This document shows, one piece after another, positions 9,170 to 57,175 of a stretch of 64,000 nt of DNA (position 1 is the first letter of the stretch; each line of letters begins with the position of its first letter). The DNA is taken from contig NZ_CP063814.1 in assembly GCF_015277875.1 (NCBI RefSeq), positions 2,728,001 through 2,792,000 of the forward strand. Reading direction: 5' to 3'. The notes below the pieces were generated by a model. That model did not search any database, was not told the origin of the DNA, and saw only the letters and a program-made list of their open reading frames with translations. A program made the translations under genes and the position numbers. This DNA comes from Microbacterium luteum. GTDB taxonomy: Bacteria; Actinomycetota; Actinomycetes; Actinomycetales; Microbacteriaceae.

Positions 9170-9186
9170 GCGACCCCCAGATTCGC
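9170..9186 (-). promoter_or_regulatory. TGGGGG-loop hairpin before the FAAL start
   Basis: On the minus strand GCGA-ATCTGGGGG-TCGC forms a 4-bp stem with the G run in the loop, two bases before the ATG at 9168. One of twelve similar structures at gene starts in this window. Confidence 0.4.
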
Positions 9187-9198
9187 GTGACTCGTCAT

Positions 9199-9332
9199 TC
9201 AGCTGGGCGCCGTCGGCCAATGACGGCATGCTAAGCGCCTGCCGTCACGCGCGGGAAGTGGTGTGCGCAGGTGTTCACACGATCGCAACAACCTGCTGTC
9301 ACAGTGTGCGCATCCGCGGAGGGGGAACGCAC
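9199..9332. promoter_or_regulatory. Divergent promoter region of the acyl operon and the WS/DGAT-like gene
   Basis: 134 bases between divergently read genes. Two direct copies of GTGTGCGCA (9261-9269 and 9304-9312) lie 43 bp apart, and the sequence around the first forms an imperfect inverted repeat (GTGTGCGCAGGTGTTCACAC). They could be a shared operator; this is inference. Confidence 0.35.
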
Positions 9333-10592
9333 ATGACACGACGGTCCGCACGACGCCCGCACGCCGAATTCATGCAGGTGTGGGAGGAGGGCTACGTCGG
9401 CACGACCGAAACCTTCGTCTCGATGCACATGCAGGGCATCGCCGTGCTCAAGGGCGGCCGGCTGCGCCGGTCAGACGGATCCCTCGACCAGCCGGCGATC
9501 ACCGCGTGGGTCCGGTCCGCGACGAAGGCGGTCCCCTACGCCCACCTGAGGCTGCAGCGCTCATTCCTCGGCCTCACGCCGCCGGCGTGGGTGCCGGCCG
9601 GCATCCGCATCGACGATCACGTGCGCTTCGGCACCGAGACGGCGCTGACCGACGACAACCTCCGCACCCTCATCGGGTGGGGTGAGGGCCCCCTCGAGAG
9701 CGGCAAGCCGCTGTGGCGTCTGCAGGTGACGCCCCTCACCGACGGTCGCGTCGCGCTCGGCATCCTCATGCATCACGCCGGCGGCGATGCGCTGCGCACG
9801 CTCACCTTCCTGCGCGCGCTGACGACATCGAAGGCGGATGCCGCCCCCGACCCCGGCGAGCCCCTCTTCCGTGACGAGCGCCCGGCCGGGTCGATCGAAC
9901 TCCCCCTGCTCGCGTGGACGACCTGGTGGCGTGCGTCGCCGGACATGCGCGGTCGCGTGCGGGCGTGTCTGCGCAAGCCGGCGCTCCGGCGCGCGCGGCG
10001 CGTGGCTGCACGGGTCACCCGACGCCTCAGGGATCGCCCGGCACGAGCGGTGACCACGCACTCCGGGCACCGCACGCTCGACGCGAGCATCGTGCAGGAG
10101 ACGGCCACCCAACTCGATGGAACGATGAACGACCTCATCGTGGCCGCAGCGATCCATGCCGGCGCCGTGGAGGGCGGGCCGGTGCGGGTGCGCGTTCCGG
10201 TGCTGCGCAAGCCGACCGAGGGCAGCCGCAATCGTGTTGCCGATGCGGCGATCCACGGCGATCGCGCGGGCTCCTCCGCTGATCTCGTCACCACGGTGAA
10301 GCGGCAGCTGGCCGATGCCCGCGCCGGCACGACCAGACTGCCCGAGAAAGCACGAGAGATCGGCTACGCAACACTCGTGCCGTGGGTCTCGCGCACCCGG
10401 TTCGTGCTGGGCGCAGCGGTCGATGAGGTGATCGTGCTCCCCGCGTCGCTGCCGCACGACGAGCTGTCGATGTTCGCGATCTTCTACGACGGTCGCCTCA
10501 CCGTAACGGCGACGACCCAGCAGTCGACCCGGCTCCCTCCCCTCCTCGACAGCCTCGCCACCTTCCTCACCAACGCACCCCCCGGTCGTTGA
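9333..10592 (+). CDS. WS/DGAT-like (condensation-superfamily) acyltransferase
   Basis: 419 residues from an ATG with an unusually strong GGAGGGGGA upstream, itself in the loop of a 5-bp hairpin (GTGCG/CGCAC). The HHxxxDG active-site motif appears as HHAGGDA (147-153), with the last Gly replaced by Ala. N-terminal features (FVSMHMQGIAVL; GEGPLESGKPLWRLQV) fit wax-ester-synthase/diacylglycerol-acyltransferase proteins, which move an acyl group to an alcohol. It is divergent from the FAAL-dehydrogenase-ACP operon and could release the finished acyl chain from the ACP. The stop codon TGA is supplied by the first copy of the dispersed repeat (CCGGTCGTTGAG), so the original C-terminus may have been altered. 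Acceptor unknown. Confidence 0.72.
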   Translation: MTRRSARRPHAEFMQVWEEGYVGTTETFVSMHMQGIAVLKGGRLRRSDGSLDQPAITAWVRSATKAVPYAHLRLQRSFLGLTPPAWVPAGIRIDDHVRFGTETALTDDNLRTLIGWGEGPLESGKPLWRLQVTPLTDGRVALGILMHHAGGDALRTLTFLRALTTSKADAAPDPGEPLFRDERPAGSIELPLLAWTTWWRASPDMRGRVRACLRKPALRRARRVAARVTRRLRDRPARAVTTHSGHRTLDASIVQETATQLDGTMNDLIVAAAIHAGAVEGGPVRVRVPVLRKPTEGSRNRVADAAIHGDRAGSSADLVTTVKRQLADARAGTTRLPEKAREIGYATLVPWVSRTRFVLGAAVDEVIVLPASLPHDELSMFAIFYDGRLTVTATTQQSTRLPPLLDSLATFLTNAPPGR

Positions 10593-10696
10593 GCGAGCCG
10601 CACGCCGCCCCCGGTCGTTAAGCGCGCCGAAGGCGAGACGAAACGCACCACCGCACGCCTCCCGGTCGTTGAGCGAGCCGAAGGCGAGACGAAACG
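10584..10696 (+). repeat. Dispersed repeat, three copies (one truncated)
   Basis: Copies at 10584-10600 (5' half only), 10613-10645 and 10664-10696, all of the form GGTCGTTGAGCGAGC...GGCGAGACGAAACG (33 bp). The ends can pair (CGTT/AACG, GCC/GGC). The first copy provides the stop codon of the upstream gene. Related copies lie at 16604, 23002-23140 and 42681. Confidence 0.85.
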
Positions 10697-10731
10697 CAGC
10701 CTCACCGGTTACCGCCAGGTAAACAAATCCT

Positions 10732-10824: not shown

Positions 10825-10842
10825 GGACCACTGGGGAGGTCC
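10825..10842 (+). promoter_or_regulatory. TGGGGA-loop hairpin before the 10847 start
   Basis: GGACC-ACTGGGGA-GGTCC, a 5-bp perfect stem, ends four bases before the ATG at 10847. Member of the twelve-copy leader hairpin group. Confidence 0.5.
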
Positions 10843-10846: not shown

Positions 10847-11590
10847 ATGTCTGTCTTCACCGCGCTCGCGCACGAAGGTAAATGGCTGTTCCGCAATCAG
10901 CGCTCGGTGGTGCTGATCGCCGCGATGGTGCTCGGTGTCGATGTGGCACTCGGGCTCATCCACGTGGTGGTGATGGTCGGGTGGGATGCGCCCAACGTGC
11001 TGCGCGTCGATATGGACGGCAGCTACGGCGAGGCCTATCAGTACGTGAAGTACCTGTGGGTGGTGGTGCTGCTGGCGATGTTCGCCGTCGCGCGCCGCAG
11101 CTGGTCGGTGGTCGCGTGGATCCCGCTGTTCCTGTACTTCTTCGTCGATGACGCGTTCATGGTGCACGAGATCGTCGGCTTCGTCTACGCGATGCAGCCG
11201 TGGGCGTTCGGCATCGGGCCCATCGGGCCGCAGTCCTTCGGCGAGCTGGCGGTCTCGGGTGTCGCCCTGCTGGTGTTCGCGACGCCGATCGTCATCGCCT
11301 ACGTGAAAGCGGATGCGCGCACGCGGCTCATCCATCGAACGCTCGTGCTGCTGGTGGCGACCCTGCTGGTGTTCGCCGTGCTGGTCGACATCGTGCACTC
11401 GTTCTTCCTCGACATCCGCCTCCTCGACCGTTCGCTCGGGTTCATCGAGGACTTCGGCGAGATGGTGGTGCTCTCGCTCGTCGTGGTCTACCTCGTGCGC
11501 ATCAACGTCGACGCGAAGCGCCTGCCGGCGGCGATCGCCGATCCGATCCGGCGCAGCCGGCGTACGCAGCCTGCGTTTGGCGCGTCGTGA
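10847..11590 (+). CDS. Polytopic membrane protein of unknown function
   Basis: 247 residues with about six hydrophobic segments (for example SVVLIAAMVLGVDVALGLIHVVVMVG, YLWVVVLLAMFAVA, LLVATLLVFAVLVDIVHSFF) and a basic C-terminal tail (RRSRRTQPAF). Charged residues sit inside or next to predicted helices (FVDDAFMVHEIVG, FIEDFGEMVVL). I do not recognise the family. It is a single gene with its own candidate operator and a TGGGGA hairpin leader like those of the polysaccharide genes downstream, so it may be co-regulated with them. Start chosen from the spacing to GGGGAGG. Confidence 0.75.
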   Translation: MSVFTALAHEGKWLFRNQRSVVLIAAMVLGVDVALGLIHVVVMVGWDAPNVLRVDMDGSYGEAYQYVKYLWVVVLLAMFAVARRSWSVVAWIPLFLYFFVDDAFMVHEIVGFVYAMQPWAFGIGPIGPQSFGELAVSGVALLVFATPIVIAYVKADARTRLIHRTLVLLVATLLVFAVLVDIVHSFFLDIRLLDRSLGFIEDFGEMVVLSLVVVYLVRINVDAKRLPAAIADPIRRSRRTQPAFGAS

Positions 11591-12683: not shown

Positions 12684-12710
12684 CATTTCGTTCCTGGGGA
12701 GATCGAAATG
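12684..12710 (+). promoter_or_regulatory. TGGGGA-loop hairpin in the leader of the first initiating transferase
   Basis: CATTTCG (12684-12690) and CGAAATG (12704-12710) form a perfect 7-bp stem around TTCCTGGGGAGAT. A separate ribosome site (GGAAGG, 12710-12715) lies between the hairpin and the GTG at 12722, so the loop is not the ribosome site itself. Confidence 0.55.
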
Positions 12711-12721
12711 GAAGGCACATC

Positions 12722-14284
12722 GTGTCGACGATAGAAAACGACACGACAACGACGTCGCCGGATACACCGTCCATCGGTGCGCCCGGGCAGGGGGCTCAAA
12801 CGCCGGCCGCGACGGCCGACGCAGCGCACCCCTCGCCGACGTCGGCGTCGCGCTGGCGCACGCACTACGCGCGACGACTGTGGTTCAGCGACCTGTTCGT
12901 GCTGGTCTGGGTGGTGTTCGGCGCGCAGCTGGTGTGGTTCGGCACCGGCAACGTCGATCTCGCCATCCACGAGAACGCCGCGATCAGTGCGGTGTCGTAC
13001 TGGCTCTTCTCGACCGGACTGGTGCTGGCGTGGATGTGGGCGCTGACCCTCATCGACTCCCGCAGCGACCGCGTGATCGGCCACGGCACGACCGAATACA
13101 TCCGGGTGGCGAACGCGAGCCTGACGCTGTTCGGCTTCATCGCGATCGCGGCGTTCCTGCTCGGTATCGAAGTCGCGCGCGGCTACCTGCTGCTGAGCCT
13201 TCCGGCGGGTGTGCTCATGCTGGTGCTCGAGCGCTGGCTGTGGCGGCACTGGCTCATCGCGCGACGGGCGATGAAGGAGTACTCCGCGAGGGTGCTGCTC
13301 GTCGGCTCGGCGCAGTCGGTCACGCAGATCGCCCACGAACTGCAGCGCACGCCGGCTGCGGGGTATCTCGTCGTCGGCGCGTGTGTTCCGAACGCGGCGG
13401 TGGCCTCGACGATCGCGGGCACCGACATTCCGGTGATGGGTTCGGTCAACGCCGTCGACCGAGCGATCGCGGCAACCGGAGCAGATACGGTCGCGGTGAC
13501 CAGCACCGACGATCTGCCGCCGGACAAGGTGAAGCAGATCTCGTGGAGCCTCGAGGCCGGCCGTCAGCATCTCGTGCTCGCGCCGAGCATCATCGACATC
13601 GCCGGGCCCCGCCTGCACACGCGTCCGGTGGCGGGTCTCCCGCTCATCCACGTGGAGACGCCGCGGTTCAGCAAGGGTCAGCTGTTCCTGAAGCGCATGG
13701 TCGATCTCGTCGCGAGCATTCTGGGGGTGATCGCGCTGAGTCCGGTGCTGGCGTTCCTCGCCATCACGGTGCGGCTGTCGAGCCAGGGTCCGGTGCTGTT
13801 CCGGCAGACCCGCATCGGCCTGCGGGGTCGCGAGTTCACGATGCTGAAGTTCCGGTCGATGGTCGTCAACGCCGAAGACATGCTCGAAAACCTCGCCCGC
13901 CAGCAGCGCGATTCGGGCAACGAGGTGCTGTTCAAGATGACGGATGACCCCCGGGTCACCGCGGTCGGCAAGGTCATGCGCAAGTTCAGCCTCGACGAGC
14001 TGCCGCAGCTGTTCAACGTGATCGGCGGCTCCATGTCACTCGTGGGGCCGCGCCCCCCGCTTCCGGCCGAGGTCGCACAGTATGCCGACCACGTTCACCG
14101 CCGCTTCCTCGCGAAGCCCGGCATCACCGGTCTGTGGCAGGTGAGCGGACGGTCGACGCTGTCGTGGGAGGAGTCGGTGCGCCTGGACCTCTCCTACGTC
14201 GAGAACTGGTCGCTGCTCGGTGACATCGCGATCCTGCTGAAGACCGCGAAGGCGGTCGTGAGCCCGGGCGAAACGGCCTCCTGA
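12722..14284 (+). CDS. Polyprenyl glycosylphosphotransferase (polysaccharide initiation), copy 1
   Basis: 520 residues from the GTG at 12722, the position that matches the second copy at 23352. The N-terminal half has several membrane helices and a nucleotide-fold linker; the C-terminal half is the bacterial sugar transferase domain with KRMVDLVAS, MLKFRSMVVNAEDM, DELPQLFNVIGGSMSLVGPRP and GITGLWQVSGRSTLSWEE. Such enzymes (WcaJ/WbaP type) transfer a sugar-1-phosphate to undecaprenyl phosphate at the inner membrane, the first step of repeat-unit synthesis. The copy at 23352 is nearly the same protein over most of its length, differing mainly at the N-terminus and around 210-240. The donor sugar cannot be read from the sequence. 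Confidence 0.93.
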   Translation: MSTIENDTTTTSPDTPSIGAPGQGAQTPAATADAAHPSPTSASRWRTHYARRLWFSDLFVLVWVVFGAQLVWFGTGNVDLAIHENAAISAVSYWLFSTGLVLAWMWALTLIDSRSDRVIGHGTTEYIRVANASLTLFGFIAIAAFLLGIEVARGYLLLSLPAGVLMLVLERWLWRHWLIARRAMKEYSARVLLVGSAQSVTQIAHELQRTPAAGYLVVGACVPNAAVASTIAGTDIPVMGSVNAVDRAIAATGADTVAVTSTDDLPPDKVKQISWSLEAGRQHLVLAPSIIDIAGPRLHTRPVAGLPLIHVETPRFSKGQLFLKRMVDLVASILGVIALSPVLAFLAITVRLSSQGPVLFRQTRIGLRGREFTMLKFRSMVVNAEDMLENLARQQRDSGNEVLFKMTDDPRVTAVGKVMRKFSLDELPQLFNVIGGSMSLVGPRPPLPAEVAQYADHVHRRFLAKPGITGLWQVSGRSTLSWEESVRLDLSYVENWSLLGDIAILLKTAKAVVSPGETAS

Positions 14285-16684: not shown

Positions 16685-17005
16685 ATGGCAGCACCACGGA
16701 AGTACAGCGAGGAGCTGAAGGATCGGGCGATGCGGATGGCGTTGGACGCGCGTCGAGATCCTGAGTCGAGGGTCGGCGCGATCAAGCGGATTGCGGACCA
16801 GCTCGGGATCCATCCGGAAGCGTTACGGACCTGGGTGCGGCAGGCCGAGGTCGACGACGGCATCGCGCCGGGCACGACGACCGCGGACGCGCAGCGGATC
16901 GCGGACCTCGAGCGCGAGGTGCGGGAGCTGCGTCGCGCGAACGAGATCCTCAAGACCGCGTCGGCTTTTTTCGCGGCGGCGGAGCTCGACCGCAAGCTGA
17001 AGTAG
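16685..17005 (+). CDS. IS-B OrfA, helix-turn-helix protein
   Basis: About 106 residues from the ATG at 16685 (GGGAG upstream; an in-frame ATG at 16676 would add three). HTH_Tnp_1 type: RKYSEELKDRAMRMALDAR ... LGIHPEALRTWVRQAEVDDG, then a coiled coil (DLEREVRELRRANEILKTASAFF). The codons GC-T|TTT|TTC at 16966-16972 form the canonical slippery heptamer for a -1 shift into orfB. Confidence 0.87.
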   Translation: MAAPRKYSEELKDRAMRMALDARRDPESRVGAIKRIADQLGIHPEALRTWVRQAEVDDGIAPGTTTADAQRIADLEREVRELRRANEILKTASAFFAAAELDRKLK

Positions 17006-17985
17006 CCGAGGTGCCCACCGCGGTGCTCGTCGAGTACATCGACGGGCACCGCGACCGGTTCGGGGTCGAGCCGATCTGTCGTGTCCTGCGTGACGCGGGT
17101 ATGCAGATCGCCCCGAGCACCTACTACGCCGCCAAGGTCCGCCCGCCGTCGGCGAGGGCGGTCAGGGACGCGGCACTGACCGTCGACATCCGGGTCACGC
17201 ATAAGGCGAACCTTGGCGTCTACGGGGTGCGGAAGATCCACGCCGAACTGAATCGGCAGGGCGTGGAAGTGGCCCGCTGCACGGTCGAGCGGCTGATGCG
17301 GCAGGAAGGGATCCAAGGGATCCGGCGCGACAAGTCCCGCCGCACGACGTTCGGCGACGGTGCGGAGACGGAGCGGCCGCTGGACCTGGTGGAGCGGCGC
17401 TTCGAAGCGACCGCGCCGAACCAGCTCTGGGTCGCAGATCTGACCTACATCCGCACCCACGCCGGCTGGGTCTACGCCGCGTTCGTCCTGGACGTGTTCA
17501 GCCGCCGCGTCGTGGGCTGGCAGGTCTCCACGAGCATGCGCACCGATCTCGCTCTCGACGCACTGGACATGGGCTTGTGGGAACGGCAGCGCGCCGGCCA
17601 GGACGTGTCCGGACTGATCCACCACTCCGACCGCGGAGTTCAATATCGAGCCATCCGCTACACCGAACGCCTCGCCGAAGCCGACGCGGTCGCCAGCGTC
17701 GGCTCCAAGGGCGATTCGTGCGACAACGCGATGGCCGAGGCGCTGAACTCGCTGTTCAAAGCCGAGTGCATCCGCAACCCGGTCATGCGCCCGAAGGGCG
17801 GCTGGGCATCGATCCGCGATGTCGAGATCGCCGTCGCGGAGTACATCGACTGGTACAACCACCGACGCCTTCACGGCGAGATCGGGATGACCCCGCCCGT
17901 CGAAGCAGAGGCCGTCCACTGGGCATCCCAGGCAGCGGTCGAATACGCTCAAGAACACGTCCCCGCCGGGGCCGGAACCAACTAA
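16972..17985 (+). CDS. IS-B OrfB, DDE transposase (made by -1 frameshift)
   Basis: Integrase-core protein continuing from the slip at 16966-16972; the independent reading could begin at the GTG at 17011. N-terminal HTH_21 region (GVYGVRKIHAELNRQG), then the catalytic triad: Asp in WVADLTYIRTHAGW, Asp in IHHSDRGVQY and Glu in DNAMAEALNSLFKAE. Intact to the stop at 17985. Close in layout to the transposase of IS-C (21780-22739) but clearly a different element. Confidence 0.9.
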   Translation, partial: RGGGARPQAEVAEVPTAVLVEYIDGHRDRFGVEPICRVLRDAGMQIAPSTYYAAKVRPPSARAVRDAALTVDIRVTHKANLGVYGVRKIHAELNRQGVEVARCTVERLMRQEGIQGIRRDKSRRTTFGDGAETERPLDLVERRFEATAPNQLWVADLTYIRTHAGWVYAAFVLDVFSRRVVGWQVSTSMRTDLALDALDMGLWERQRAGQDVSGLIHHSDRGVQYRAIRYTERLAEADAVASVGSKGDSCDNAMAEALNSLFKAECIRNPVMRPKGGWASIRDVEIAVAEYIDWYNHRRLHGEIGMTPPVEAEAVHWASQAAVEYAQEHVPAGAGTN

Positions 17986-22739: not shown

Positions 22740-22895
22740 CGCGAGTCTCCATCAGACCCAGGGCGCTTCAACCGGCGGCACAGAAACCAGGAGCGCCACG
22801 TAGACGAACCCGACGCCCAGGAGAAAGGGCAGCTGTGCGCGCACGAAGACGCTCCGGCGCCACCTCGCGTCTCGCGCATCAGTGGCCCAAGGCAT

Positions 22896-22908
22896 CGATT
22901 CCCCATCG
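22896..22908 (-). promoter_or_regulatory. GGGGA-loop hairpin at the kinase start
   Basis: On the minus strand CGAT-GGGGA-ATCG is followed immediately by the ATG at 22895. The stem is short (4 bp). Same layout as the other leader hairpins. Confidence 0.4.
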
Positions 22909-23259: not shown

Positions 23260-23310
23260 CCGCTATGCTCGACGAGTTGTCACCGGATGAGATCCGTCTC
23301 ATCAGGGGGG

Positions 23311-23341
23311 CACTTCGTTCTGTTGGGGAGAACCAGAAGTG
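23311..23341 (+). promoter_or_regulatory. TTGGGG-loop hairpin in the leader of the second initiating transferase
   Basis: CACTTC/GAAGTG and GTTCT/AGAAC stack into an 11-bp stem with a two-base bulge and the loop GTTGGGG. A separate AAAGG ribosome site precedes the GTG at 23352. This is one of the longest hairpins of the group, and its stem sequence differs from that of copy 1 although both close on the same loop. Confidence 0.6.
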
Positions 23342-23351
23342 AAAGGCAATC

Positions 23352-24893
23352 GTGTCGATTCTTGATGGCGACACGACAATGACGTCGACAGATGCAGCAG
23401 CAGCACCTATGAGCGCAGTCACGGCTGCGCAGACGGCTCGCCCGTCGCCGAAGCAGCGCAACTGGCGCAAGCGGTTCTCGCGTCGCCTGCTCGTGAGCGA
23501 CCTGTTCGTTCTCATCTGGGTCGTCTTCGGTGCGCAGATCGTGTGGTTCGGCACGGGCAACGTCGACCTGGCGATCCACGAGAACGCCGCCATCACGGAC
23601 GTCTCCTACTGGATGTTCTCTGCCGGCCTCGTCGTGCTCTGGATGTGGGCACTCAGCCTGATCGACTCCCGCAGCGAGCGGGTGATCGGCACTGGAACGG
23701 CTGAGTATGTGCGGGTCGCGAACGCGAGCCTCACCCTCTTCGGCTTCATCGCAATCACGGCTTTCTTGCTGAGAATCGAGGTGGCTCGCGGTTACCTCCT
23801 CCTCAGCCTCCCCGCCGGAATCCTCGTGCTCGTCTTCTCGCGGTGGATGTGGAGGCAGTGGCTGATCGCTCACCGCTCGATGAACGAGTACTCCGCGCGA
23901 GTGCTCCTCGTCGGCTCTCCTGACTCCGTCACCCAGATCGCGCGCGAACTGGAACGAATGCCATCAGCCGGCTATGCCGTGGTGGGTGCCTGCACCACCT
24001 CGCACGGTCGCGCGCTCACCCTCCGCAACGGATCGCTCCCGGTTCTCGGGGGGATAGACGACGTCGAATCCGCGCTCGCCACGACCGGCGCCGACACCGT
24101 CGCCGTCACGAGCACCGACGAGCTGCCTCCCGACAAGGTCAAGCAGATCTCATGGCGCCTCGAAGCAGGCAAGCAACACCTCGTGCTCGCGCCGAGCATT
24201 GTCGACATCGCCGGCCCCCGTCTTCACACGCGGCCGGTCGCGGGCCTTCCCCTGATCCACGTTGAGACGCCTCGCTTCACCAAGGGACAGCTCTTCCTCA
24301 AGCGCATGGTTGACCTCGTCGCCAGCGTGCTCGGCGTGATCGTTCTCAGCCCGCTGCTCGCCTTCCTTGCCATCACAGTTCGGCTGTCGAGCGAGGGTCC
24401 CGTGTTCTTCCGCCAGACCCGCGTCGGGATTCGTGGCAAAGAGTTCACCATGATCAAGTTCCGCTCGATGGTGGTCAATGCCGAGGAGTTGCTCGAGAAG
24501 CTCGCCGAGCAGCAGCGCGACGCCGGCAACGAAGTGCTCTTCAAGATGCAGAACGACCCTCGCGTGACGCCCATCGGGCGGATCATGCGCAAGTTCAGCC
24601 TCGACGAGCTCCCGCAGCTGTTCAACGTGATCGGCGGGTCTATGTCGCTGGTCGGTCCGCGACCGCCCCTCCCCTCAGAGGTCGCGCAATACGCCGATCA
24701 CGTGCACCGCCGTTTTATCGTGAAGCCAGGCATCACCGGCCTCTGGCAGGTCAGCGGACGGTCGACCCTGTCGTGGGAAGACACCGTGCGCCTTGATCTC
24801 TCCTACGTGGAGAACTGGTCGTTGCTCACGGATGTCGCCATCGTCGCAAGGACAGCTCGTGCGGTGTTGAGCCCCGGGCAGACGGCGGCCTGA
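23352..24893 (+). CDS. Polyprenyl glycosylphosphotransferase (polysaccharide initiation), copy 2
   Basis: 513 residues from a GTG with AAAGG upstream. Same architecture as the copy at 12722: short polar N-terminus, membrane helices (LLVSDLFVLIWVVFGAQIVWF onward), a linker, then the sugar transferase domain with KRMVDLVAS, MIKFRSMVVNAEEL, DELPQLFNVIGGSMSLVGPRP and GLWQVSGRSTLSWED. It would place the first sugar-phosphate on undecaprenyl phosphate. It directly precedes the A+T-richer Wzy/Wzx cassette and is probably its initiating enzyme. Two near-palindromes and a TTGGGG hairpin lie in its leader, so its regulation appears elaborate. Confidence 0.93.
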   Translation: MSILDGDTTMTSTDAAAAPMSAVTAAQTARPSPKQRNWRKRFSRRLLVSDLFVLIWVVFGAQIVWFGTGNVDLAIHENAAITDVSYWMFSAGLVVLWMWALSLIDSRSERVIGTGTAEYVRVANASLTLFGFIAITAFLLRIEVARGYLLLSLPAGILVLVFSRWMWRQWLIAHRSMNEYSARVLLVGSPDSVTQIARELERMPSAGYAVVGACTTSHGRALTLRNGSLPVLGGIDDVESALATTGADTVAVTSTDELPPDKVKQISWRLEAGKQHLVLAPSIVDIAGPRLHTRPVAGLPLIHVETPRFTKGQLFLKRMVDLVASVLGVIVLSPLLAFLAITVRLSSEGPVFFRQTRVGIRGKEFTMIKFRSMVVNAEELLEKLAEQQRDAGNEVLFKMQNDPRVTPIGRIMRKFSLDELPQLFNVIGGSMSLVGPRPPLPSEVAQYADHVHRRFIVKPGITGLWQVSGRSTLSWEDTVRLDLSYVENWSLLTDVAIVARTARAVLSPGQTAA

Positions 24894-36366: not shown

Positions 36367-37824
36367 GGCTCTTCGGACATCCGGTGGGGGTCAGTGGGTG
36401 AGCCCGCCGGCGGCGAGGAGCATGCGGAGCCGGTAGTTCTCCCGGTTGCGGTAGCCGCGAGCGAGGCGTCGGTGCAGCTCGATGATCCCGTTGATCGCCT
36501 CGGTGCCGCCGTTGGATGACCGGCTCGTGGTGAAGTACGCCAGGAACGCGTCACGCCACCGGCGGAGGGTGCGGCCCAGACGCGCGATCTCGGGGATCGG
36601 GCAGGTGTGGAACGTGTCGACGACCTTCTCCGCGATCCGCCGCCCGGCGGCCAGGTCATCGTGGTGGTAGGCGGAGCGGAGCTGCTGCGCGCACTGCCAG
36701 GCGACGAACACCTCGTCGTGCGCGGGGTCGGCTTCCATCGCCGCGGTCAGCCTCTCCCGCTGCTTCTCGGTGAGGTTCTCGACCCCGGCGCGGAGGATTG
36801 TCTGCACTCCGTAGAGCGGGTCGCCCTTGCGGCCGCGGTGGCCGAGGGTGTCTTGCTGGACGCGACGGCGGACCTCGTCGACGGCGGCGGTGCCGAGCAT
36901 GACTACGTGGAACGCGTCGAGGACCGCGACGGCGTCGTCGAGCTTGTCGTCGATCGCGGTCTTGTATCCGGCGAACGGGTCCAGCGCGGCGACCTTCACC
37001 TGCTTCCGGAACGCGTCGCCGCGTTCACCGAGCCAGGTCGAGTAAGCCTTCCCGGACCGGCCGGGCACCAGATCCAGCAGCCTGGCCCGCGTCTTTCCTT
37101 GGCTGTCGCGGGTGAGGTCGACCATCCCGGTCAGCTCCTTCGGCCCCCGCCGGCGCGGGTCGACGTGATGCCAGACATGCTCGTCGACGCCGAGGCTGGT
37201 GACGTTCTCAAACCGGGACTCGTCCGCCGCGAGCTTGACGAGCTCGGGTTCGACGGCCCGCCACACCGTCTTCCACGACGTCCCGAGCTGCCGGGCGAGT
37301 CCTTGGATGGTGGCGTGCTCGCGGCGCAGCTGCCCGATCGCCCACGTGACGGCGCGCTTGGTGATCGATCCGCGCGGCGCGACCAGCGACGGGACCTGCT
37401 CCACGAACGTCTTCCGCGGACAGGCAGCCTCACCGCACCGCCAGATGCGTTGCCGCCACACCACCCGCACCCGGGTCACGCCGGGCACGTCATGCAGCAC
37501 CCGAAGGCGCCGGCCACGCCCGGTCGCGAGCACGCCACACCCAGGGCACCCCGTCGGGGACGCTGGCGTCGAGACCGTCACGACGAGGACACCGCCGCCA
37601 CGCTGGACGTGCTCGACATGGACGCCGTCGAGGCCGAGCAGCAGGTCGCAGCGGGCACACGGACAGTCGGCGGGGCGCGCGTCAGCGCACCCCGAAGTAG
37701 GGTGAAGCACGTCGAGGTCCTCGGGGTGGATCAGTTTGTTAGCGCTTCTGATCCTCGGGGACCTCGACCCCTACCGCCGAATCACGGCCCGGGCACGCTC
37801 ACCCCACCGGATGTCCGAAGAGCC
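36367..37824 (-). mobile_element. ISL3-family insertion sequence, copy 1
   Basis: 1458 bp with perfect 23-bp terminal inverted repeats starting GGCTCTTCGGACATCCGGTG. One minus-strand transposase gene. Separated from copy 2 by only AATCT. The usual 8-bp target duplication is not intact on the left side (CCGGGAAAAGG). Confidence 0.95.
36391..37710 (-). CDS. ISL3-family transposase, copy 1
   Basis: 439 residues. N-terminal zinc-binding domain (CPGCGVLATGRGRRLRVLHD ... CGEAACPRKTF), HTH (AVTWAIGQLRREHATIQGLA), then the DDE_Tnp_ISL3 core: SLGVDEHVWHHVD, ALDPFAGYKTAIDDKL, AVLDAFHVVML and the late SNGGTEAINGIIELHRRLAR. Moves the element by cut-and-paste or copy mechanisms. Same protein sequence as copy 2. 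Confidence 0.95.
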   Translation of the reverse strand: MLHPTSGCADARPADCPCARCDLLLGLDGVHVEHVQRGGGVLVVTVSTPASPTGCPGCGVLATGRGRRLRVLHDVPGVTRVRVVWRQRIWRCGEAACPRKTFVEQVPSLVAPRGSITKRAVTWAIGQLRREHATIQGLARQLGTSWKTVWRAVEPELVKLAADESRFENVTSLGVDEHVWHHVDPRRRGPKELTGMVDLTRDSQGKTRARLLDLVPGRSGKAYSTWLGERGDAFRKQVKVAALDPFAGYKTAIDDKLDDAVAVLDAFHVVMLGTAAVDEVRRRVQQDTLGHRGRKGDPLYGVQTILRAGVENLTEKQRERLTAAMEADPAHDEVFVAWQCAQQLRSAYHHDDLAAGRRIAEKVVDTFHTCPIPEIARLGRTLRRWRDAFLAYFTTSRSSNGGTEAINGIIELHRRLARGYRNRENYRLRMLLAAGGLTH

Positions 37825-37829: not shown

Positions 37830-39287
37830 GGCTCTTCGGACATCCGGTGGGGGTCAGTGGGTGAGCCCGCCGGCGGCGAGGAGCATGCGGAGCCGGTAGT
37901 TCTCCCGGTTGCGGTAGCCGCGAGCGAGGCGTCGGTGCAGCTCGATGATCCCGTTGATCGCCTCGGTGCCGCCGTTGGATGACCGGCTCGTGGTGAAGTA
38001 CGCCAGGAACGCGTCACGCCACCGGCGGAGGGTGCGGCCCAGACGCGCGATCTCGGGGATCGGGCAGGTGTGGAACGTGTCGACGACCTTCTCCGCGATC
38101 CGCCGCCCGGCGGCCAGGTCATCGTGGTGGTAGGCGGAGCGGAGCTGCTGCGCGCACTGCCAGGCGACGAACACCTCGTCGTGCGCGGGGTCGGCTTCCA
38201 TCGCCGCGGTCAGCCTCTCCCGCTGCTTCTCGGTGAGGTTCTCGACCCCGGCGCGGAGGATTGTCTGCACTCCGTAGAGCGGGTCGCCCTTGCGGCCGCG
38301 GTGGCCGAGGGTGTCTTGCTGGACGCGACGGCGGACCTCGTCGACGGCGGCGGTGCCGAGCATGACTACGTGGAACGCGTCGAGGACCGCGACGGCGTCG
38401 TCGAGCTTGTCGTCGATCGCGGTCTTGTATCCGGCGAACGGGTCCAGCGCGGCGACCTTCACCTGCTTCCGGAACGCGTCGCCGCGTTCACCGAGCCAGG
38501 TCGAGTAAGCCTTCCCGGACCGGCCGGGCACCAGATCCAGCAGCCTGGCCCGCGTCTTTCCTTGGCTGTCGCGGGTGAGGTCGACCATCCCGGTCAGCTC
38601 CTTCGGCCCCCGCCGGCGCGGGTCGACGTGATGCCAGACATGCTCGTCGACGCCGAGGCTGGTGACGTTCTCAAACCGGGACTCGTCCGCCGCGAGCTTG
38701 ACGAGCTCGGGTTCGACGGCCCGCCACACCGTCTTCCACGACGTCCCGAGCTGCCGGGCGAGTCCTTGGATGGTGGCGTGCTCGCGGCGCAGCTGCCCGA
38801 TCGCCCACGTGACGGCGCGCTTGGTGATCGATCCGCGCGGCGCGACCAGCGACGGGACCTGCTCCACGAACGTCTTCCGCGGACAGGCAGCCTCACCGCA
38901 CCGCCAGATGCGTTGCCGCCACACCACCCGCACCCGGGTCACGCCGGGCACGTCATGCAGCACCCGAAGGCGCCGGCCACGCCCGGTCGCGAGCACGCCA
39001 CACCCAGGGCACCCCGTCGGGGACGCTGGCGTCGAGACCGTCACGACGAGGACACCGCCGCCACGCTGGACGTGCTCGACATGGACGCCGTCGAGGCCGA
39101 GCAGCAGGTCGCAGCGGGCACACGGACAGTCGGCGGGGCGCGCGTCAGCGCACCCCGAAGTAGGGTGAAGCACGTCGAGGTCCTCGGGGTGGATCAGTTT
39201 GTTAGCGCTTCTGATCCTCGGGGACCTCGACCCCTACCGCCGAATCACGGCCCGGGCACGCTCACCCCACCGGATGTCCGAAGAGCC
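37830..39287 (-). mobile_element. ISL3-family insertion sequence, copy 2
   Basis: Same length and ends as copy 1, same orientation. Left of it lies AATCT (after GCC of copy 1), right of it GGAAATCT: the 8 bases on the left, GCCAATCT, match 6 of 8 with the right flank, consistent with an original GGAAATCT duplication whose first three bases were replaced when copy 1 joined. Confidence 0.95.
37854..39173 (-). CDS. ISL3-family transposase, copy 2
   Basis: 439 residues, with the same translated sequence as copy 1 throughout, including the zinc ribbon and the DDE core. The complete match of two adjacent copies implies very recent duplication. Either copy can supply transposase, and the tandem is a likely site of loss by recombination. 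Confidence 0.95.
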   Translation of the reverse strand: MLHPTSGCADARPADCPCARCDLLLGLDGVHVEHVQRGGGVLVVTVSTPASPTGCPGCGVLATGRGRRLRVLHDVPGVTRVRVVWRQRIWRCGEAACPRKTFVEQVPSLVAPRGSITKRAVTWAIGQLRREHATIQGLARQLGTSWKTVWRAVEPELVKLAADESRFENVTSLGVDEHVWHHVDPRRRGPKELTGMVDLTRDSQGKTRARLLDLVPGRSGKAYSTWLGERGDAFRKQVKVAALDPFAGYKTAIDDKLDDAVAVLDAFHVVMLGTAAVDEVRRRVQQDTLGHRGRKGDPLYGVQTILRAGVENLTEKQRERLTAAMEADPAHDEVFVAWQCAQQLRSAYHHDDLAAGRRIAEKVVDTFHTCPIPEIARLGRTLRRWRDAFLAYFTTSRSSNGGTEAINGIIELHRRLARGYRNRENYRLRMLLAAGGLTH

Positions 39288-46678: not shown

Positions 46679-46901
46679 CGCCAGACACGCCTGAGTCAAT
46701 GCTCATGCCCGGCCGAAAACCGGCCCGCGAGCACCTGCCGCGCACGTCCGCTGCACTTCAGACGACTTCCTGCTGCCTCCTTAATTCGTTGGAAACGCGG
46801 CGGTAACCCGACGGGGTCGCGTGACCGATAACGTTCCAGAGTTGGGCAGCGGAGTTCGGTGCATTCATTGGGGGAGCATCGGGCAGTGATGTTGTCCGCG
46901 T

Positions 46902-46920
46902 CATACGAGGTTGGGGACTC

Positions 46921-46923
<3 letters not shown>
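46902..46923 (+). promoter_or_regulatory. TTGGGGA-loop hairpin overlapping the LPATG gene start
   Basis: CAT-AC-GAG / CTC-ATG with loop GTTGGGGA; the start codon at 46921 is the 3' arm of the stem. A second GGGGGA lies farther upstream (46870). Confidence 0.45.
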
Positions 46924-47655
<732 letters not shown>

Positions 47656-47796: not shown

Positions 47797-47825
47797 CGTT
47801 CACCAATCTGGGGGGATCATGAACG
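47797..47825 (+). promoter_or_regulatory. TGGGGG-loop hairpin overlapping the start of the 53-residue protein
   Basis: CGTTCA/TGAACG (6 bp) and an inner ATC/GAT pair enclose the loop TGGGGG. The ATG at 47819 lies in the 3' arm. Confidence 0.5.
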
Positions 47826-48071: not shown

Positions 48072-49364
48072 TCAGAGGGCCGCCCAGATGGTGGCAAGCC
48101 TCGCCGCATCGGGCATCGGACAGTTCGCGTCGTACCAGCTCTGCGGCAGCGGCTCGTCCGCGGCCGCATACGTGTCGTCGACCGTGAACTCGCCCGACGC
48201 GGGCGTGGGCGGGTTGTGCGAGACCACCGTGTTCGATGCGCTCGCGAAGTTCCATCCGCGGATCGACCCGGCGATGAAGCTGTCCGACGCCGTCGCATTG
48301 GTGACCGGATCCGTCGTCTTTCCCCACAGCGTGTTCTGCGCCGTCATCACATGTCGCCCGGCACCGATCGGGTAGCGCCCGGTGCCCCGCAGCCCGCCGA
48401 TGAAAGCGGAATGCGCGAGGCTCACTCCGCTCGTGTGCTCCATCATCAGCACCTGCGAGCTGGATTGGAAGAACACGCTGTCCTCGAAACGAAGGTTTCG
48501 GATGCCGCCACTCCCGCTCGATCGGCTCGCCTGGAATGTGTCGCAGTGCGAGCTCGATCCCGCGGCCTTGTAGGCCGGCGCGACGTAGCATCCGAGAAGC
48601 GAGACGCCGTCGATGGAGTAGTTGTTGGCGATGCGGAACGCCATGCGATCCGTGTCGTCATCGACCTGATCCGGCAGCACGCACTCGACGAACTCGACCC
48701 CGCTCGTGTTGGCGTTGTTGGCGGTGATGTTCAGCTGACCGACCGTCGACCATGCCAGCGCGAAGTCCTGAGCGTCTCGCACGAGCACCGCTTGACCGCT
48801 GAAGTCGAAGCCCACGACCGAGATCCCCGAAACGTTCACGAACGCGTAGCCGCGGCTGGACGCTTGAGCGATCGTGCCGCTCGCGGTGACCGTGCCCCAG
48901 CCATCGCGCGGCACGACCAGCACGCGCCACGTGCGTCCGCCCGCGTTGATGCCGTGAAGCACGCCGTAGTCGGTCGAGCCCGCACCGTAGCCGTAATCGA
49001 ACACTCCCGGCTTCACCGCGATCTTGATCTTGCCCTGCGGCTGCTGCTGGATGGCGTCGGCGATGGCGTTCTGGATGGTCCACCAGTTCGGCTCCACCTC
49101 GACGACGAGGTCGAAGGCGCCGCCTGGCTCAGGCGTGCGCGCCGGCCAGTGCGATCCGGCCGGGCCGTAAGCGCCCGTCGCCGAAGCCGGCGCCTCCGGC
49201 GCGGGTGTCGGCACGGGATCCGCCGGCACCTCACACGACGGATCGATCGTCGTCGCGCTCGCGCGACCCGGCATCATCGTCTGCGCGACGGCGAAGGCCG
49301 GCACGGCCAGCAATGCGGCGCGGAAAACGTCGCGCCGACCCCATTCACTCTTCATCGATTCCAC
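48072..49364 (-). CDS. Tat-exported parallel beta-helix protein 1
   Basis: 430 residues from the GTG at 49364, chosen because TTGGGGCGATCGTGGAA is shared with the neighbour at the same place; an ATG three codons later is the alternative. Twin-arginine signal GRRDVFRAALLAVPAF, then a long right-handed beta-helix-like region with short hydrophobic rungs (YAFVNVSGISVVGFDFSGQAVLVRD). Conserved with the next gene: SHWPARTP, GCYVAPAYKAAGSSSHCDTF, EHTSGVSLAHSAFIGGLRGTGRYPI and the end WYDANCPMPDAARL. Such folds occur in polysaccharide lyases, epimerases and depolymerases. The context suggests action on the exopolysaccharide outside the cell, but catalytic residues of a known lyase family are not identified. 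Confidence 0.82.
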   Translation of the reverse strand: MESMKSEWGRRDVFRAALLAVPAFAVAQTMMPGRASATTIDPSCEVPADPVPTPAPEAPASATGAYGPAGSHWPARTPEPGGAFDLVVEVEPNWWTIQNAIADAIQQQPQGKIKIAVKPGVFDYGYGAGSTDYGVLHGINAGGRTWRVLVVPRDGWGTVTASGTIAQASSRGYAFVNVSGISVVGFDFSGQAVLVRDAQDFALAWSTVGQLNITANNANTSGVEFVECVLPDQVDDDTDRMAFRIANNYSIDGVSLLGCYVAPAYKAAGSSSHCDTFQASRSSGSGGIRNLRFEDSVFFQSSSQVLMMEHTSGVSLAHSAFIGGLRGTGRYPIGAGRHVMTAQNTLWGKTTDPVTNATASDSFIAGSIRGWNFASASNTVVSHNPPTPASGEFTVDDTYAAADEPLPQSWYDANCPMPDAARLATIWAAL

Positions 49365-49380
49365 GATCGCCCCAACTCGT
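49363..49380 (-). promoter_or_regulatory. TTGGGG-loop hairpin overlapping the beta-helix 1 start
   Basis: On the minus strand ACGA-GTTGGGGCGA-TCGT, with the GTG start beginning in the 3' arm. The 17 bases TTGGGGCGATCGTGGAA are identical to those before beta-helix 2. Confidence 0.5.
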
Positions 49381-51071: not shown

Positions 51072-51091
51072 GATCGCCCCAAATCGGTCGT
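51070..51091 (-). promoter_or_regulatory. TTGGGG-loop hairpin overlapping the beta-helix 2 start
   Basis: On the minus strand CGAT-TTGGGGCG-ATCG, or alternatively ACGA/TCGT one step outwards; the GTG start lies at the 3' edge. Confidence 0.5.
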
Positions 51092-51507: not shown

Positions 51508-51525
51508 CACGAATGGGGACTCGTG
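51508..51525 (+). promoter_or_regulatory. TGGGGA-loop hairpin overlapping the Wzz/BY-kinase start
   Basis: CACGA-ATGGGGAC-TCGTG, a perfect 5-bp stem in which the 3' arm contains the GTG start codon (51523). Folding would hide the start while exposing the G run. Confidence 0.55.
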
Positions 51526-54214: not shown

Positions 54215-54241
54215 AGCGATGCTGCTTGGGGAAGCATCGCT
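54215..54241 (+). promoter_or_regulatory. TTGGGGA-loop hairpin in the leader of the 54267 gene
   Basis: AGCGATGCT / AGCATCGCT, perfect 9-bp stem, loop GCTTGGGGA, followed by TTCTTG. It lies ten bases after a likely -10 (TACAGT), so it would be the 5' end of the transcript. A separate ribosome site (GGGGAGG, 54255-54261) precedes the ATG. Confidence 0.6.
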
Positions 54242-54266
54242 TTCTTGTGCCAGTGGGGAGGCGCAT

Positions 54267-55394
54267 ATGGATCGGCCGCGTGTTGCGGTGATCGTTCGGT
54301 ACGGACTGAATCCGAACGCCTGGGAAGAGCGCCATCGGCGCGGTGAGGTCGCGGACAGAACGCCGTACGGATACCACCTCGCCGAGTCGGCCTTCGACCT
54401 GGAGTGGTCGACCGACCGCATCGAGGGCGCCACGGCCCGGTGGTGGCGCATGACCGTGAAACGCGTGCTCGGGTTCGACTTCATCCACGTGTGGCGCAAC
54501 CGAGACGCGATCGCCCGGGCCGACGCGGTGTGGACGCACACCGAGCGGGAGCACCTCGCCGTCGCCCTCCTCAAGCTGCTGCGACCTCACCGATATCGCG
54601 CGGCGAGCATCGCGCAGTCGGTCTGGCTGTGGGACCTGTGGCCCGAGCTGTCCGGCATCCGCACCCGCTTCTTCCGCCACCTGCTTCGCCGGCACGCCGT
54701 CGAGATCGTGCTGAGCCGCATCAACCGCGACGACGCCCAGCACCTCGCGCCCGGCCGCACGGTGCTGCGCGTTCCCTTCGGTACCCACTTCGCCGACGCG
54801 GGCGAGCCGGGCGAACGTGCCGAGCCTCGCGTCGTGGTGGTCGGCAACGACCGGCACCGCGACTGGGACCTCATGGCCGGCGTCGCGCGCGCGATGCCCG
54901 GCGTGGCCGTCGATGTCATCTCACTGTCGGATGAGGTGCGCGCCCTCGACTGGGCACCCAACGTCACCGTTCGAAGCCTTCGGCAGGCCGACCTGCTCCG
55001 CAGCCTGTATCGCTCGGCGACCGTGGTCGCCCTGCCGCTCCACGCGAACCGGCACGCCTCCGGCTGCACCGTCGCGATCGAAGCCCTGTCCGCGGGTGTG
55101 CCCGTGGTGGCCACGGACGCCGGAGGCATCGACGAATACCTCGACGGCAGCGTGCACAGCACGCTCGTCCCCCGCGGCGACCTCGACGCGTTCACCGCCG
55201 CGATCGCCGTGCTCACGCGCGAGGGCGCCCGGGAGGACGCCTCCGTCCCCCGCCATCGCGGTCTCGGGGAGGCCGACTACATCGCACGGCTGGTCGCCAT
55301 CACCCACGCCGTCCTCGCCGGGCGGCCCGTCGACCCGGCCGTCGAGGAGTTCCAGACGATGAGCAGCGCCGACGATCCGGAGCCGGCGCGATGA
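54267..55394 (+). CDS. Glycosyltransferase, GT4-like
   Basis: 375 residues from the ATG at 54267 (GGGGAGG upstream). N-terminal half with RYGLNPNAWEERHRRGEVAD and WTHTEREHLAVALLKLL; C-terminal GT4 features: RVVVVGNDRHRDWDLMAGVA and ANRHASGCTVAIEALSAGVP (nucleotide-sugar contact region) then VVATDAGGIDEYLDG. First gene of a coupled set with an acyltransferase and another transferase. It acts in the cytoplasm on a lipid-linked intermediate; sugar unknown. Confidence 0.86.
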   Translation: MDRPRVAVIVRYGLNPNAWEERHRRGEVADRTPYGYHLAESAFDLEWSTDRIEGATARWWRMTVKRVLGFDFIHVWRNRDAIARADAVWTHTEREHLAVALLKLLRPHRYRAASIAQSVWLWDLWPELSGIRTRFFRHLLRRHAVEIVLSRINRDDAQHLAPGRTVLRVPFGTHFADAGEPGERAEPRVVVVGNDRHRDWDLMAGVARAMPGVAVDVISLSDEVRALDWAPNVTVRSLRQADLLRSLYRSATVVALPLHANRHASGCTVAIEALSAGVPVVATDAGGIDEYLDGSVHSTLVPRGDLDAFTAAIAVLTREGAREDASVPRHRGLGEADYIARLVAITHAVLAGRPVDPAVEEFQTMSSADDPEPAR

Positions 55395-55948
55395 CCGCCC
55401 TCGACCTGCTGCTGACGGCGCAGCGCACCAGAGACCTCGTCTTCAGCAAGCTCGCGGCGGGCGGCTTCGCGAGTTTCGGACCCGCATCCCGCATCCTGCT
55501 CCCCACACGCTTGTCCGGTGTGGCGAACGTGGCCGTCGGCGACCGCGTGCTCATCGGCGCCGGGTCGTGGCTCATCGTTCCCGAGCAGCGAGCACCCGGA
55601 CCGAACATCGTCATCGGCGACCGCGTGCGCATGAATCAGACCTCGATATCGGGGGTGGAGCGCATCGACATCGAAGAGGGGGTCGCGATGGCGCGCGGCT
55701 GCTACATCTCCGACCACTCGCACGGCTTCGACGACCCCGACGCGTTCATCCGCGACCAGCCCCTCTCCCGCGTCGCCCCCGTGCGAATCAAGCGAGGCGC
55801 GTGGCTCGGGCAGAACTGCGTCGTCATGCCCGGCGTCACCATCGGTGCCGGCAGTGTCATCGGAGCCAACAGCGTCGTCACTCGAGACATCCCCGACCGC
55901 ACCGTCGCCGCCGGAACTCCCGCACGAATCCTCAGGAGTCTGCCGTGA
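55391..55948 (+). CDS. Hexapeptide-repeat acyltransferase (WcaF/NodL-like)
   Basis: 185 residues, ATG overlapping the previous stop (ATGA). Left-handed beta-helix repeats (ISGVERIDIEEGVAMARGCY; VVMPGVTIGAGSVIGANSVV) with the catalytic His in CYISDHSHGFDD. Such enzymes transfer acetyl from acetyl-CoA to a sugar hydroxyl before export. The coupled position between two transferases suggests acetylation of the repeat unit. Confidence 0.9.
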   Translation: MTALDLLLTAQRTRDLVFSKLAAGGFASFGPASRILLPTRLSGVANVAVGDRVLIGAGSWLIVPEQRAPGPNIVIGDRVRMNQTSISGVERIDIEEGVAMARGCYISDHSHGFDDPDAFIRDQPLSRVAPVRIKRGAWLGQNCVVMPGVTIGAGSVIGANSVVTRDIPDRTVAAGTPARILRSLP

Positions 55949-57129
55949 CGCTCGCCGCATCCTCTCCCCTCCCGCCCGGCATGTCCCACCGGGCGCGCGA
56001 CTTCGTCTTCACGTTCTCGTACGAGTCCTACGCCGACGCACACAAGCGCGGGATGATGCGCCCGCCCGATCGCCTGGTGTCGACGCTCATCGACAGCCCC
56101 GAGGTGCGTCGTGTGCTCGTCGCCGATCCCTTCCGCTCGTGGATCACCAGCTGGGTGCGAGCGCTCGTCGACATCCGCCACCGGGCGCGCGAGACCGACA
56201 AGTTCCGGCACGTCAGCCCGATGCGCATCGCGCGCGCCGATCCGGTGCACGTCGATGACGTGGCCGCGGTGTACCGGGACTACGAGCGCATCGTGCGGCG
56301 CGCGGCGGAGGCTGCCCAACTCGAGCAGCCGGCGTTCGTGACGGCCAGTCCCCTCGTCGGCGGCTTCACCGACCTCGACTGGACCGGCGGCGCGCTCTAC
56401 TACGCCCGCGACGACTGGCTGAGCTCCCCCGCGAGACGCCGTTACTGGCCGGCGTACCGCGAGGCCTACCGCCGCATCGCCGCCAGCGGGCGCGCGGTCG
56501 CCGCCGTCTCGCAGGAGATCATCGACCGCATCGAGCCGACGGGACCGCATCGCGTCGTGCCCAACGGAATCGAGCCCCGAGAGTGGCTGGGTCCGCAGCC
56601 GACGACTCCGGACTGGCTCACCCGCATCCCCGGCCCCCGCGCGGCCTACCTCGGCACCCTCGATTCCCGCCTCGACATCGACGGGCTCGAGACCCTCGCC
56701 GTCGCCCGACCCGATCTGCACATCGTGCTCATCGGCCCGGTGCCCGATCCGACGTACATCCGCTCGCTGCGCGGCCGACCCAACATCCACATCCGCGGTG
56801 AAGTGCGACGGCACGAGGTCGTGGCCGTGCTCCGCAACGTGGAGCTGACACTTCTCGCCCACCGGCGCACGCCGCTGACCGAGGCCATGAGCCCGCTCAA
56901 GGTGTACGAATACCTCGCCGCCGGCAGGCCGGTGCTCGCCACCGACCTGCGCCCCGTCCGCGGCCTCGGAGACCGAGTGCTCCTGGCCGAATCCGTATCC
57001 GACTTCGTCGACCTGCTGGATCCCGCACTGGGAATCGGGCTCCAGGAAGAACCGGCGAGAGCGTCGTACATCGCAGCCAATGCGTGGACGGCGCGACATC
57101 GAGAGATCCTGTCGCTCCTGGGCGGCTGA
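55945..57129 (+). CDS. Glycosyltransferase, GT-B fold (TuaH-like)
   Basis: 394 residues from a GTG overlapping the acyltransferase stop, with AGGAG upstream. N-terminal domain contains FVFTFSYESYADAHKRGMM and LYYARDDWLSSPARR; C-terminal domain AAYLGTLDSRLDIDGLETLA and TEAMSPLKVYEYLAAGRPVL, the pattern of GT1/GT4 transferases such as teichuronic-acid TuaH. Adds a sugar to the growing unit. Donor unknown. Confidence 0.86.
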   Translation: MTLAASSPLPPGMSHRARDFVFTFSYESYADAHKRGMMRPPDRLVSTLIDSPEVRRVLVADPFRSWITSWVRALVDIRHRARETDKFRHVSPMRIARADPVHVDDVAAVYRDYERIVRRAAEAAQLEQPAFVTASPLVGGFTDLDWTGGALYYARDDWLSSPARRRYWPAYREAYRRIAASGRAVAAVSQEIIDRIEPTGPHRVVPNGIEPREWLGPQPTTPDWLTRIPGPRAAYLGTLDSRLDIDGLETLAVARPDLHIVLIGPVPDPTYIRSLRGRPNIHIRGEVRRHEVVAVLRNVELTLLAHRRTPLTEAMSPLKVYEYLAAGRPVLATDLRPVRGLGDRVLLAESVSDFVDLLDPALGIGLQEEPARASYIAANAWTARHREILSLLGG

Positions 57130-57158
57130 TCACAACCGCTCCGACCATGTCGGGGCAC

Positions 57159-57175
57159 GAAACTCTGGGGGTTTC
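57159..57175 (+). promoter_or_regulatory. TGGGG-loop hairpin before the 57179 start
   Basis: GAAAC-TCTGGGG-GTTTC, perfect 5-bp stem, ending three bases before the ATG at 57179. Confidence 0.5.

Follow-up and report, generated by a model that had tools for sequence, protein, structure and literature searches.

The 6C small RNAs (sRNAs) are widespread in actinobacteria and, to our knowledge, their tested targets are known only in mycobacteria. Here we relate this family to twelve gene starts in a 64-kb stretch of a Microbacterium genome (the window; bases 2728001-2792000 of the 3.52-Mb single contig, genome G000). An initial annotation had described a hairpin with TGGGG in its loop at each of these starts and had proposed a common post-transcriptional switch, read by CsrA or by an sRNA. 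As reported for M. marinum (PMC12395582) and M. abscessus (PMC10470900), the C-rich loops of the mycobacterial 6C RNA, B11, bind a G-tract in the mRNA, translation falls, and the mRNA decays; the M. marinum study places B11 at Rv3660-Rv3661 and describes target prediction in a G+C-rich genome as poor. We find that the Microbacterium genome encodes a 6C/B11-type sRNA and that the TGGGG motifs form G-tracts in leaders whose genes encode surface-polysaccharide functions or secreted-type proteins; most of the tracts are in Shine-Dalgarno (SD) position, and those of the wbaP and 54267 leaders are held in hairpin loops. At close to even chances, we favor the reading that this sRNA controls the surface-polysaccharide genes at the level of translation, by analogy with B11. 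No report of 6C targets in Microbacteriaceae was found in the literature searched, which is weak evidence of absence given that most subscription journals lay outside its coverage.

The Rfam 6C model (RF01066) gives no match in this genome at an E value of 0.001, and we therefore searched the family and trained a model on it (R1). Across 120 Microbacteriaceae genomes, RF01066 matches at an E value of 1 or better in 80 and reaches its gathering score in 4. In 18 aligned copies (alignment A2; 18 of 20 fetched loci, with L086 and L093 left out), the second hairpin always has the loop TTCCCCCCAA, which is exactly complementary to TTGGGGGGAA, and the first hairpin has it with little variation. The model built from this alignment has matches with an E value of at most 1 in 33 of 38 genus genomes and identifies the gene of our genome at C1:889245-889333, outside the window (36.6 bits; E value, 7.7e-4). 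Its product has two hairpins with C6 loops, ACACCCCCCAACUC and AUUCCCCCCAU, the latter in the terminator, and both are complementary to TTGGGG. Features common to the genus copies are a -10-like box, a stretch resembling GGCCGAACATCGATTCTGGC, and two C-rich elements, a hairpin and a terminator; the terminator stem has compensatory changes at five pairs in the genus alignment (A3; 27 of 30 loci, with L119, L121, and L128 left out). Two hairpins with C-rich loops, the second being the terminator, are thus found in our copy and in the genus copies, as is characteristic of 6C. The gene is flanked by an acetate-CoA ligase and a TadA-family ATPase (TIGR03819, above cutoff). This is the kind of helicase/secretion neighborhood in which mycobacterial B11 lies.

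As a separate observation, the Rfam model used at its gathering score misses nearly all Microbacteriaceae copies (loci L082-L101 and L105-L134). Other routes to the gene were abandoned. TIGR03815, tried as a guide to the locus, matches only far below its cutoff. A genome scan for CCCCAA twice in a row gave three matches, one of them in the window, and none is the sRNA, whose second loop ends in CAT. Separately, a fixed motif, TTGGGGNNNTCRTG, was rejected, with four matches genome-wide versus three for the reversed control.

Among the twelve genes, named here by the position of their starts in the window, 12722 and 23352 encode WbaP-type sugar transferases, 51523 encodes a Wzc-like ATPase (closest named relative found, M. 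allomyrinae at 77%), 54267 and 57179 encode glycosyltransferases, and 9168(-) encodes an AMP-binding enzyme. Genes 46921, 49364, and 51071 have no Pfam match, and their N termini read as secretion signals; 22895 and 47819 are short open reading frames (ORFs) of 47 and 53 amino acids (aa). Gene starts were called by a codon-usage caller unless those of the initial annotation are stated. The caller's starts for 9168, 12722, 23352, 46921, 49364, 51071, and 54267 were wrong or doubtful in one run or another, and it missed most genes within 25-32.6 kb of the window.

Loop 1 of the sRNA finds a perfect complement of 9 nucleotides (nt) at 49364 and of 7 nt at 23352 and 46921, and loop 2 finds one of 8 nt at 47819. 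A target criterion of the M. abscessus study (PMC10470900), at least 6 nt of loop complement within 25 nt upstream of the start, is passed by 8 of the 12 sites, by 10 of 49 window genes when starts are corrected to those of the initial annotation, and by 25 of 351 genes sampled from the genome. A pairing score that includes accessibility on both sides places 7 of the 12 sites in the top 5% of the 351 sampled genes and 11 in the top 12%; gene 46921 falls in the top 0.6%, 23352 in the top 1.1%, and 47819 in the top 9.1%.

Both wzc and wbaP conserve a G-tract that lies at the ribosome site or close to it. Runs of at least five G's within 25 nt of the start occur in 19 of 55 nonredundant wzc leaders from Microbacterium and other actinobacteria, compared with 64 of 1,065 other genes of the wzc loci and 22 of 351 sampled genes of our own genome. 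For this count, 8 of 75 loci were excluded beforehand as metagenome-assembled, mislabeled, shifted-start, or distant records (L169, L171, L179, L186, L198, and L207-L209); among the 67 retained, the aligned position is a start codon in 66, and collapsing similar leaders left 55. Similarly, a run of four or more G's lies within 70 nt of the start in 33 of 50 nonredundant wbaP leaders versus 96 of 348 sampled genes, and the wbaP subset with at least 56% identity shows G4 or longer in 26 of 33 leaders and G5 in 18 of 33. The hairpin at 51523 is not conserved: TGGGG within 30 nt of the start is present in none of the first ten wzc orthologs, and we rejected this hairpin as a conserved wzc element.

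The presence of 6C and the length of the wzc tract point the same way, with G4 or longer in 15 of 19 genomes that have a 6C match versus 6 of 20 without one (G5 or longer, 8/19 versus 3/20), although we give this comparison little weight, as it is close to a single between-family contrast. The 20 genomes without a match are 17 Demequina, two Microbacterium, and one Brachybacterium (L198, which lacks a start codon at the aligned position); L145 stands outside the comparison. Weak RF01066 matches occur in 12 of the 17 Demequina genomes. Seven of these were read, and none has both C-rich loops, with L238 and L241 having one C-rich-loop hairpin each; the absence of 6C in Demequina is therefore not firm.

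The wbaP leaders also retain the hairpins. The leaders of the two window paralogs, 12722 and 23352, have a hairpin in common whose stems differ by one compensatory change, T-A to C-G (CATTTC/GAAATG and CACTTC/GAAGTG). Searching a related wbaP (L205) against 366 genus genomes and fetching the best 30 loci (L246-L275) gave leaders in which TGGGG occurs between one and five times, often in a loop of 5 to 9 nt and including one at the SD. Within 150-nt leaders of these 30 loci, 30 of 50 TGGGG motifs (plus one CGGGGG) have a stem score of at least 5.5 versus 28 of 597 controls; in the 13 closest leaders, 19 of 35 score at least 6 versus 20 of 597 controls and 5% after shuffling. Some of the source genomes are closely related, which makes the effective sample smaller. 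Stems were aligned in two sets, both chosen by eye for being paired, so that the percentage paired is biased upward. Set A (seven distinct sequences, including the 54267 hairpin of the window; seven pairs) is 100% paired, with four pairs changed on both sides, a number reached by 19 of 500 shuffles, and its covariation is 0.76 versus 0.31 when shuffled and at most 0.29 when slid. Set B (six of seven located hairpins, L252 being left out as identical in letters to L251; seven pairs) is 100% paired, with both-side changes at six pairs and a covariation of 0.83 versus 0.32 when shuffled and at most 0.28 when slid. The TGGGG loop is common to all rows of both sets except L257, which has CGGGGG. 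Compensatory stem changes, which the initial annotation had proposed as a test, are thus seen in related wbaP leaders.

The claim that the loop is kept while the stem varies does not extend to the genes of relatives' polysaccharide loci in general, where stems of at least 5 surround 15 of 173 upstream TGGGG motifs versus 229 of 2,265 elsewhere; a second count (21/320 versus 117/2,121) likewise gives no enrichment across called genes. We therefore confine the hairpin claim to the wbaP leaders and the window.

Two further features of these leaders are recorded here in their own right. In the leaders of L246-L258, additional hairpins beside the TGGGG ones carry TGGGA or GTGGG loops, and all 8 TGGGA occurrences lie in stems scoring at least 6; the kept loop core may be TGGGR. 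Both window wbaP leaders also contain an 8-codon ORF (ATG or GTG to stop; 12701-12727 and 23338-23364, + strand) that begins directly 3' of TGGGGAG and runs across the main start codon in another frame; it may encode a leader peptide that is translated, or the two paralogs may have it by chance.

The individual features of the window are as follows.

9170..9186, - strand: TGGGGG before the AMP-binding enzyme 9168(-), in SD position, with a 4-bp stem at chance level; GGGG predicted unpaired with p 0.005.
10825..10842, + strand: hairpin GGACC-actgggga-GGTCC overlapping the SD GGGGAGG of 10847; GGGG predicted unpaired with p 0.90.
12684..12710, + strand: wbaP leader hairpin CATTTCG-ttcctggggagat-CGAAATG before 12722, followed by a separate SD and paralogous to the 23352 leader.
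22896..22908, - strand: TGGGG before the 47-aa ORF 22895(-), with a 3-bp stem at chance level.
23286..23310, + strand: first hairpin of the wbaP leader of 23352, GATGAGA-tccg-TCTCATC, then AGGGGGG.
23311..23341, + strand: second wbaP leader hairpin before 23352, CACTTC ... GTTCT-gttgggg-AGAAC ... GAAGTG, with the 7 nt complementary to sRNA loop 1.
46854..46884, + strand: upstream hairpin of the 46921 leader with a cattgggg loop, stem score 7.5; GGGG predicted unpaired with p 0.02.
46901..46924, + strand: GTTGGGGA at the start of 46921 (secreted-type protein), with a weak 4-bp stem and the 7 nt complementary to sRNA loop 1.
47797..47825, + strand: CGTTCA ... ctggggggatc ... TGAACG around the start of the 53-aa ORF 47819, with a 17-nt loop and the 8 nt complementary to sRNA loop 2.
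49370..49378, - strand: GAGTTGGGG before 49364(-), the 9-nt perfect complement of sRNA loop 1, in SD position, with a stem of only 4 bp.
51077..51082, - strand: TTGGGG before 51071(-).
51508..51525, + strand: hairpin CACGA-atggggac-TCGTG over the start codon of the Wzc-like 51523.
54215..54241, + strand: strong leader hairpin AGCGATGCT-gcttgggga-AGCATCGCT of glycosyltransferase 54267, which aligns with wbaP hairpins of related genes.
54254..54261, + strand: second TGGGG of the 54267 leader, SD TGGGGAGG.
57159..57175, + strand: hairpin GAAAC-tctgggg-GTTTC before glycosyltransferase 57179; GGGG predicted unpaired with p 0.005.

The order of hairpin followed by G-run seen in the 23352 leader is also read in wbaP leaders of relatives, for example L016.

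Rereading the letters located TGGGG at all twelve starts, as the initial annotation had it. The motif is not overrepresented over the whole window (126 versus 117 ± 11 expected); it is enriched at window starts, lying within 70 nt upstream of 11 of 49 called genes versus 26 of 347 genes from 20 segments of 20 kb of the same genome, and within 30 nt upstream it is rare among sampled genes (14/349). Because the twelve sites share no stem, they were scanned with a loop-plus-stem descriptor in place of a covariance model. With loops of up to 20 nt, the longest perfect stem around TGGGG is 9 bp at 54267, 7 bp at 12722, 6 bp at 23352 and 47819 (the latter with a 17-nt loop), 5 bp at 10847, 51523, and 57179, 4 bp at 9168, 46921, 49364, and 51071, and 3 bp at 22895; at 597 TGGGG elsewhere, the mean is 3.7 bp and 18% reach 5 bp. 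The inverted repeat said to mark every start therefore holds for the seven sites with stems of at least 5 bp and is at chance level for the other five, and the twelve are not one hairpin element. Further window starts with TGGGG (14550, 34592, and 40488) have stems of only 3 to 4 bp. Scored for tight closure, 8 of 14 TGGGG at the twelve sites reach a stem score of at least 5 versus 47 of 597 elsewhere and 7% after flank shuffling, and GGGG is predicted to be unpaired with a probability above 0.1 at 7 of the 14 motifs versus 10 of 93 G4 runs in sampled leaders. These site-versus-control contrasts are optimistic, as the sites had been picked for motif and hairpin together. The suggestion that the loop is more than a ribosome site is not supported: at 10 of the 12 sites, the TGGGG closest to the start falls in the SD zone, at -9 to -15. 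A separate SD follows the looped motif at 12722, 23352, and 54267.

In the mechanism that we favor, the C-rich loops of the sRNA would form kissing contacts with the G-tract loops or mask the G-rich ribosome site, and pairing would then block translation and speed mRNA decay, a step carried over from mycobacterial B11. The hairpins may serve to expose the tract to loop-loop pairing, and a single 6C molecule could engage a two-tract leader with both of its loops. We infer that the sRNA is expressed, pairs with these leaders in vivo, and represses them as a single regulon. Several results weigh against this proposal. The gene of our genome scores 33.4 bits with Rfam's own model, under the gathering score of 47, and the consensus fold of the genus alignment is without the loop-1 hairpin, which our own sequence does form. 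Reversed loops pass the complementarity criterion at 4 of 12 sites and in 28 of 351 genes, and the G-run alone therefore carries much of the complementarity signal. With called starts, the window contrast shrinks to 8 of 49 (P = 0.035), and 51071 fails the pairing score (rank 0.895). When the related wbaP leaders are folded whole, only 8 of 35 motifs have a GGGG with a predicted unpaired probability above 0.1. Among wbaP leaders, the group whose hairpins are best keeps CTGGGG, but the 6C loops read from it (L223 and L224) have a G after the C-run, so that the kept T would pair only as U-G. Finally, two genus genomes without a 6C match (G006 and G032) nevertheless have G6 and G5 in the wbaP leader.

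The G-tracts might instead be nothing more than G-rich SD sites that use G-U pairing with the anti-SD, most window hairpins being chance, a reading that we consider unlikely but a serious contender. The SD-zone position of most sites, the five chance-level stems, and the lack of hairpin enrichment at starts across relatives' loci all agree with it, as does the merely modest rise of G4 at the SD position of sampled genes. However, within 25 nt of the start, the same sampled genes favor GGAGG (59/351) or AGGA (97/351) over G5, the run that marks more than a third of wzc leaders; at 12722, 23352, and 54267, the looped motif stands upstream of a separate SD; and stems covary in related wbaP leaders. 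The bases flanking the G-tracts do not discriminate between sRNA pairing and SD use. A different kind of reader, a protein that acts like CsrA/RsmE without being related to them and recognizes small hairpin loops containing UGGGG (or UGGGR), seems improbable to us. It would account for leaders with one to five motifs, many in 5- to 9-nt loops and one on the SD, for a CTGGGG kept more strictly than pairing with a C-run requires, and for the stem-held TGGGA loops of the same leaders. CsrA itself (PF02599) has no match in the genome, in a search whose control rings in three genomes; no RNA-binding candidate appeared among the window and neighbor proteins scanned, with no genome-wide search made for other RNA-binding families; and the CGGGGG loop of L257 departs from the motif. 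Of the two readers offered by the initial annotation, the sRNA fits best, since a 6C-type gene with complementary C-rich loops is present and CsrA was not found.

A transcription-level element, whether a regulator's binding site on the DNA or a hairpin recognized by a specialized NusG of the RfaH/LoaP type, would suit motifs in the leaders of polysaccharide units. We regard it as highly improbable: only one NusG-family protein (PF02357) matches in the genome, the position is tied to start codons, and stems that vary yet stay paired are ill-suited to a fixed DNA site. CsrA and LoaP/RfaH were set aside as readers on the absence of their genes. It is also rather doubtful, though conceivable, that Microbacterium polysaccharide leaders, in a bacterium without detectable CsrA, carry a repeated hairpin code, small UGGGG loops on drifting stems, read several times per mRNA by an undescribed regulator, with the 6C sRNA as its partner, its competitor, or itself the reader via loop-loop kissing. 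The common switch of the initial annotation is supported in part: the covarying wbaP hairpins and the G-tract enrichment at wzc and wbaP support a shared post-transcriptional element.

Two other features of the window were noted. Called genes at 36391-37500 and 37854-38963 (- strand) have equal length and coding score and identical letters around their starts, 1,463 bases apart, and look like a recent duplication, perhaps of an insertion element. At 16963-17115 (+ strand), an ALIL pseudoknot (RF01497, 55.3 bits), the frameshift signal of an insertion element, lies where two ORFs meet, the second of which has an integrase core.

Set beside described systems, the wbaP leaders resemble CsrA/RsmE leader sites in that a leader carries multiple hairpins with a G-rich motif in the loop, one of which overlaps the SD; the loop is UGGGG here and GGA there, and CsrA was not found in the genome. 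If the reader were nonetheless a protein, it would represent a new CsrA-like principle. The ops elements of RfaH and the LoaP elements sit in leaders of polysaccharide operons, as our motifs do, but no second NusG was found here and our motifs lie at start codons. ANTAR-target RNAs of actinobacteria are likewise tandem small hairpins; their hexaloops follow a rule of A1 and G4, which CTGGGG does not match. The closest likeness is to 6C/B11 (RF01066; M. marinum, PMC12395582, and M. abscessus, PMC10470900). The systems share two C-rich loops, one of them in the terminator, a TadA-type ATPase next door, and G-tracts beside the ribosome sites of surface-glycan genes (lipooligosaccharide in M. marinum). 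They differ in that the Microbacterium copy falls under the Rfam cutoff, that its proposed targets are polysaccharide leaders, known here from sequence, and that several Microbacterium tracts lie in hairpin loops, with more than one tract per leader. If these leaders are indeed 6C targets, then 6C would control the outer glycan layer in two distant orders alike, and the wbaP hairpins would illustrate a way of exposing a G-tract to loop-loop pairing against a G+C-rich genomic background.

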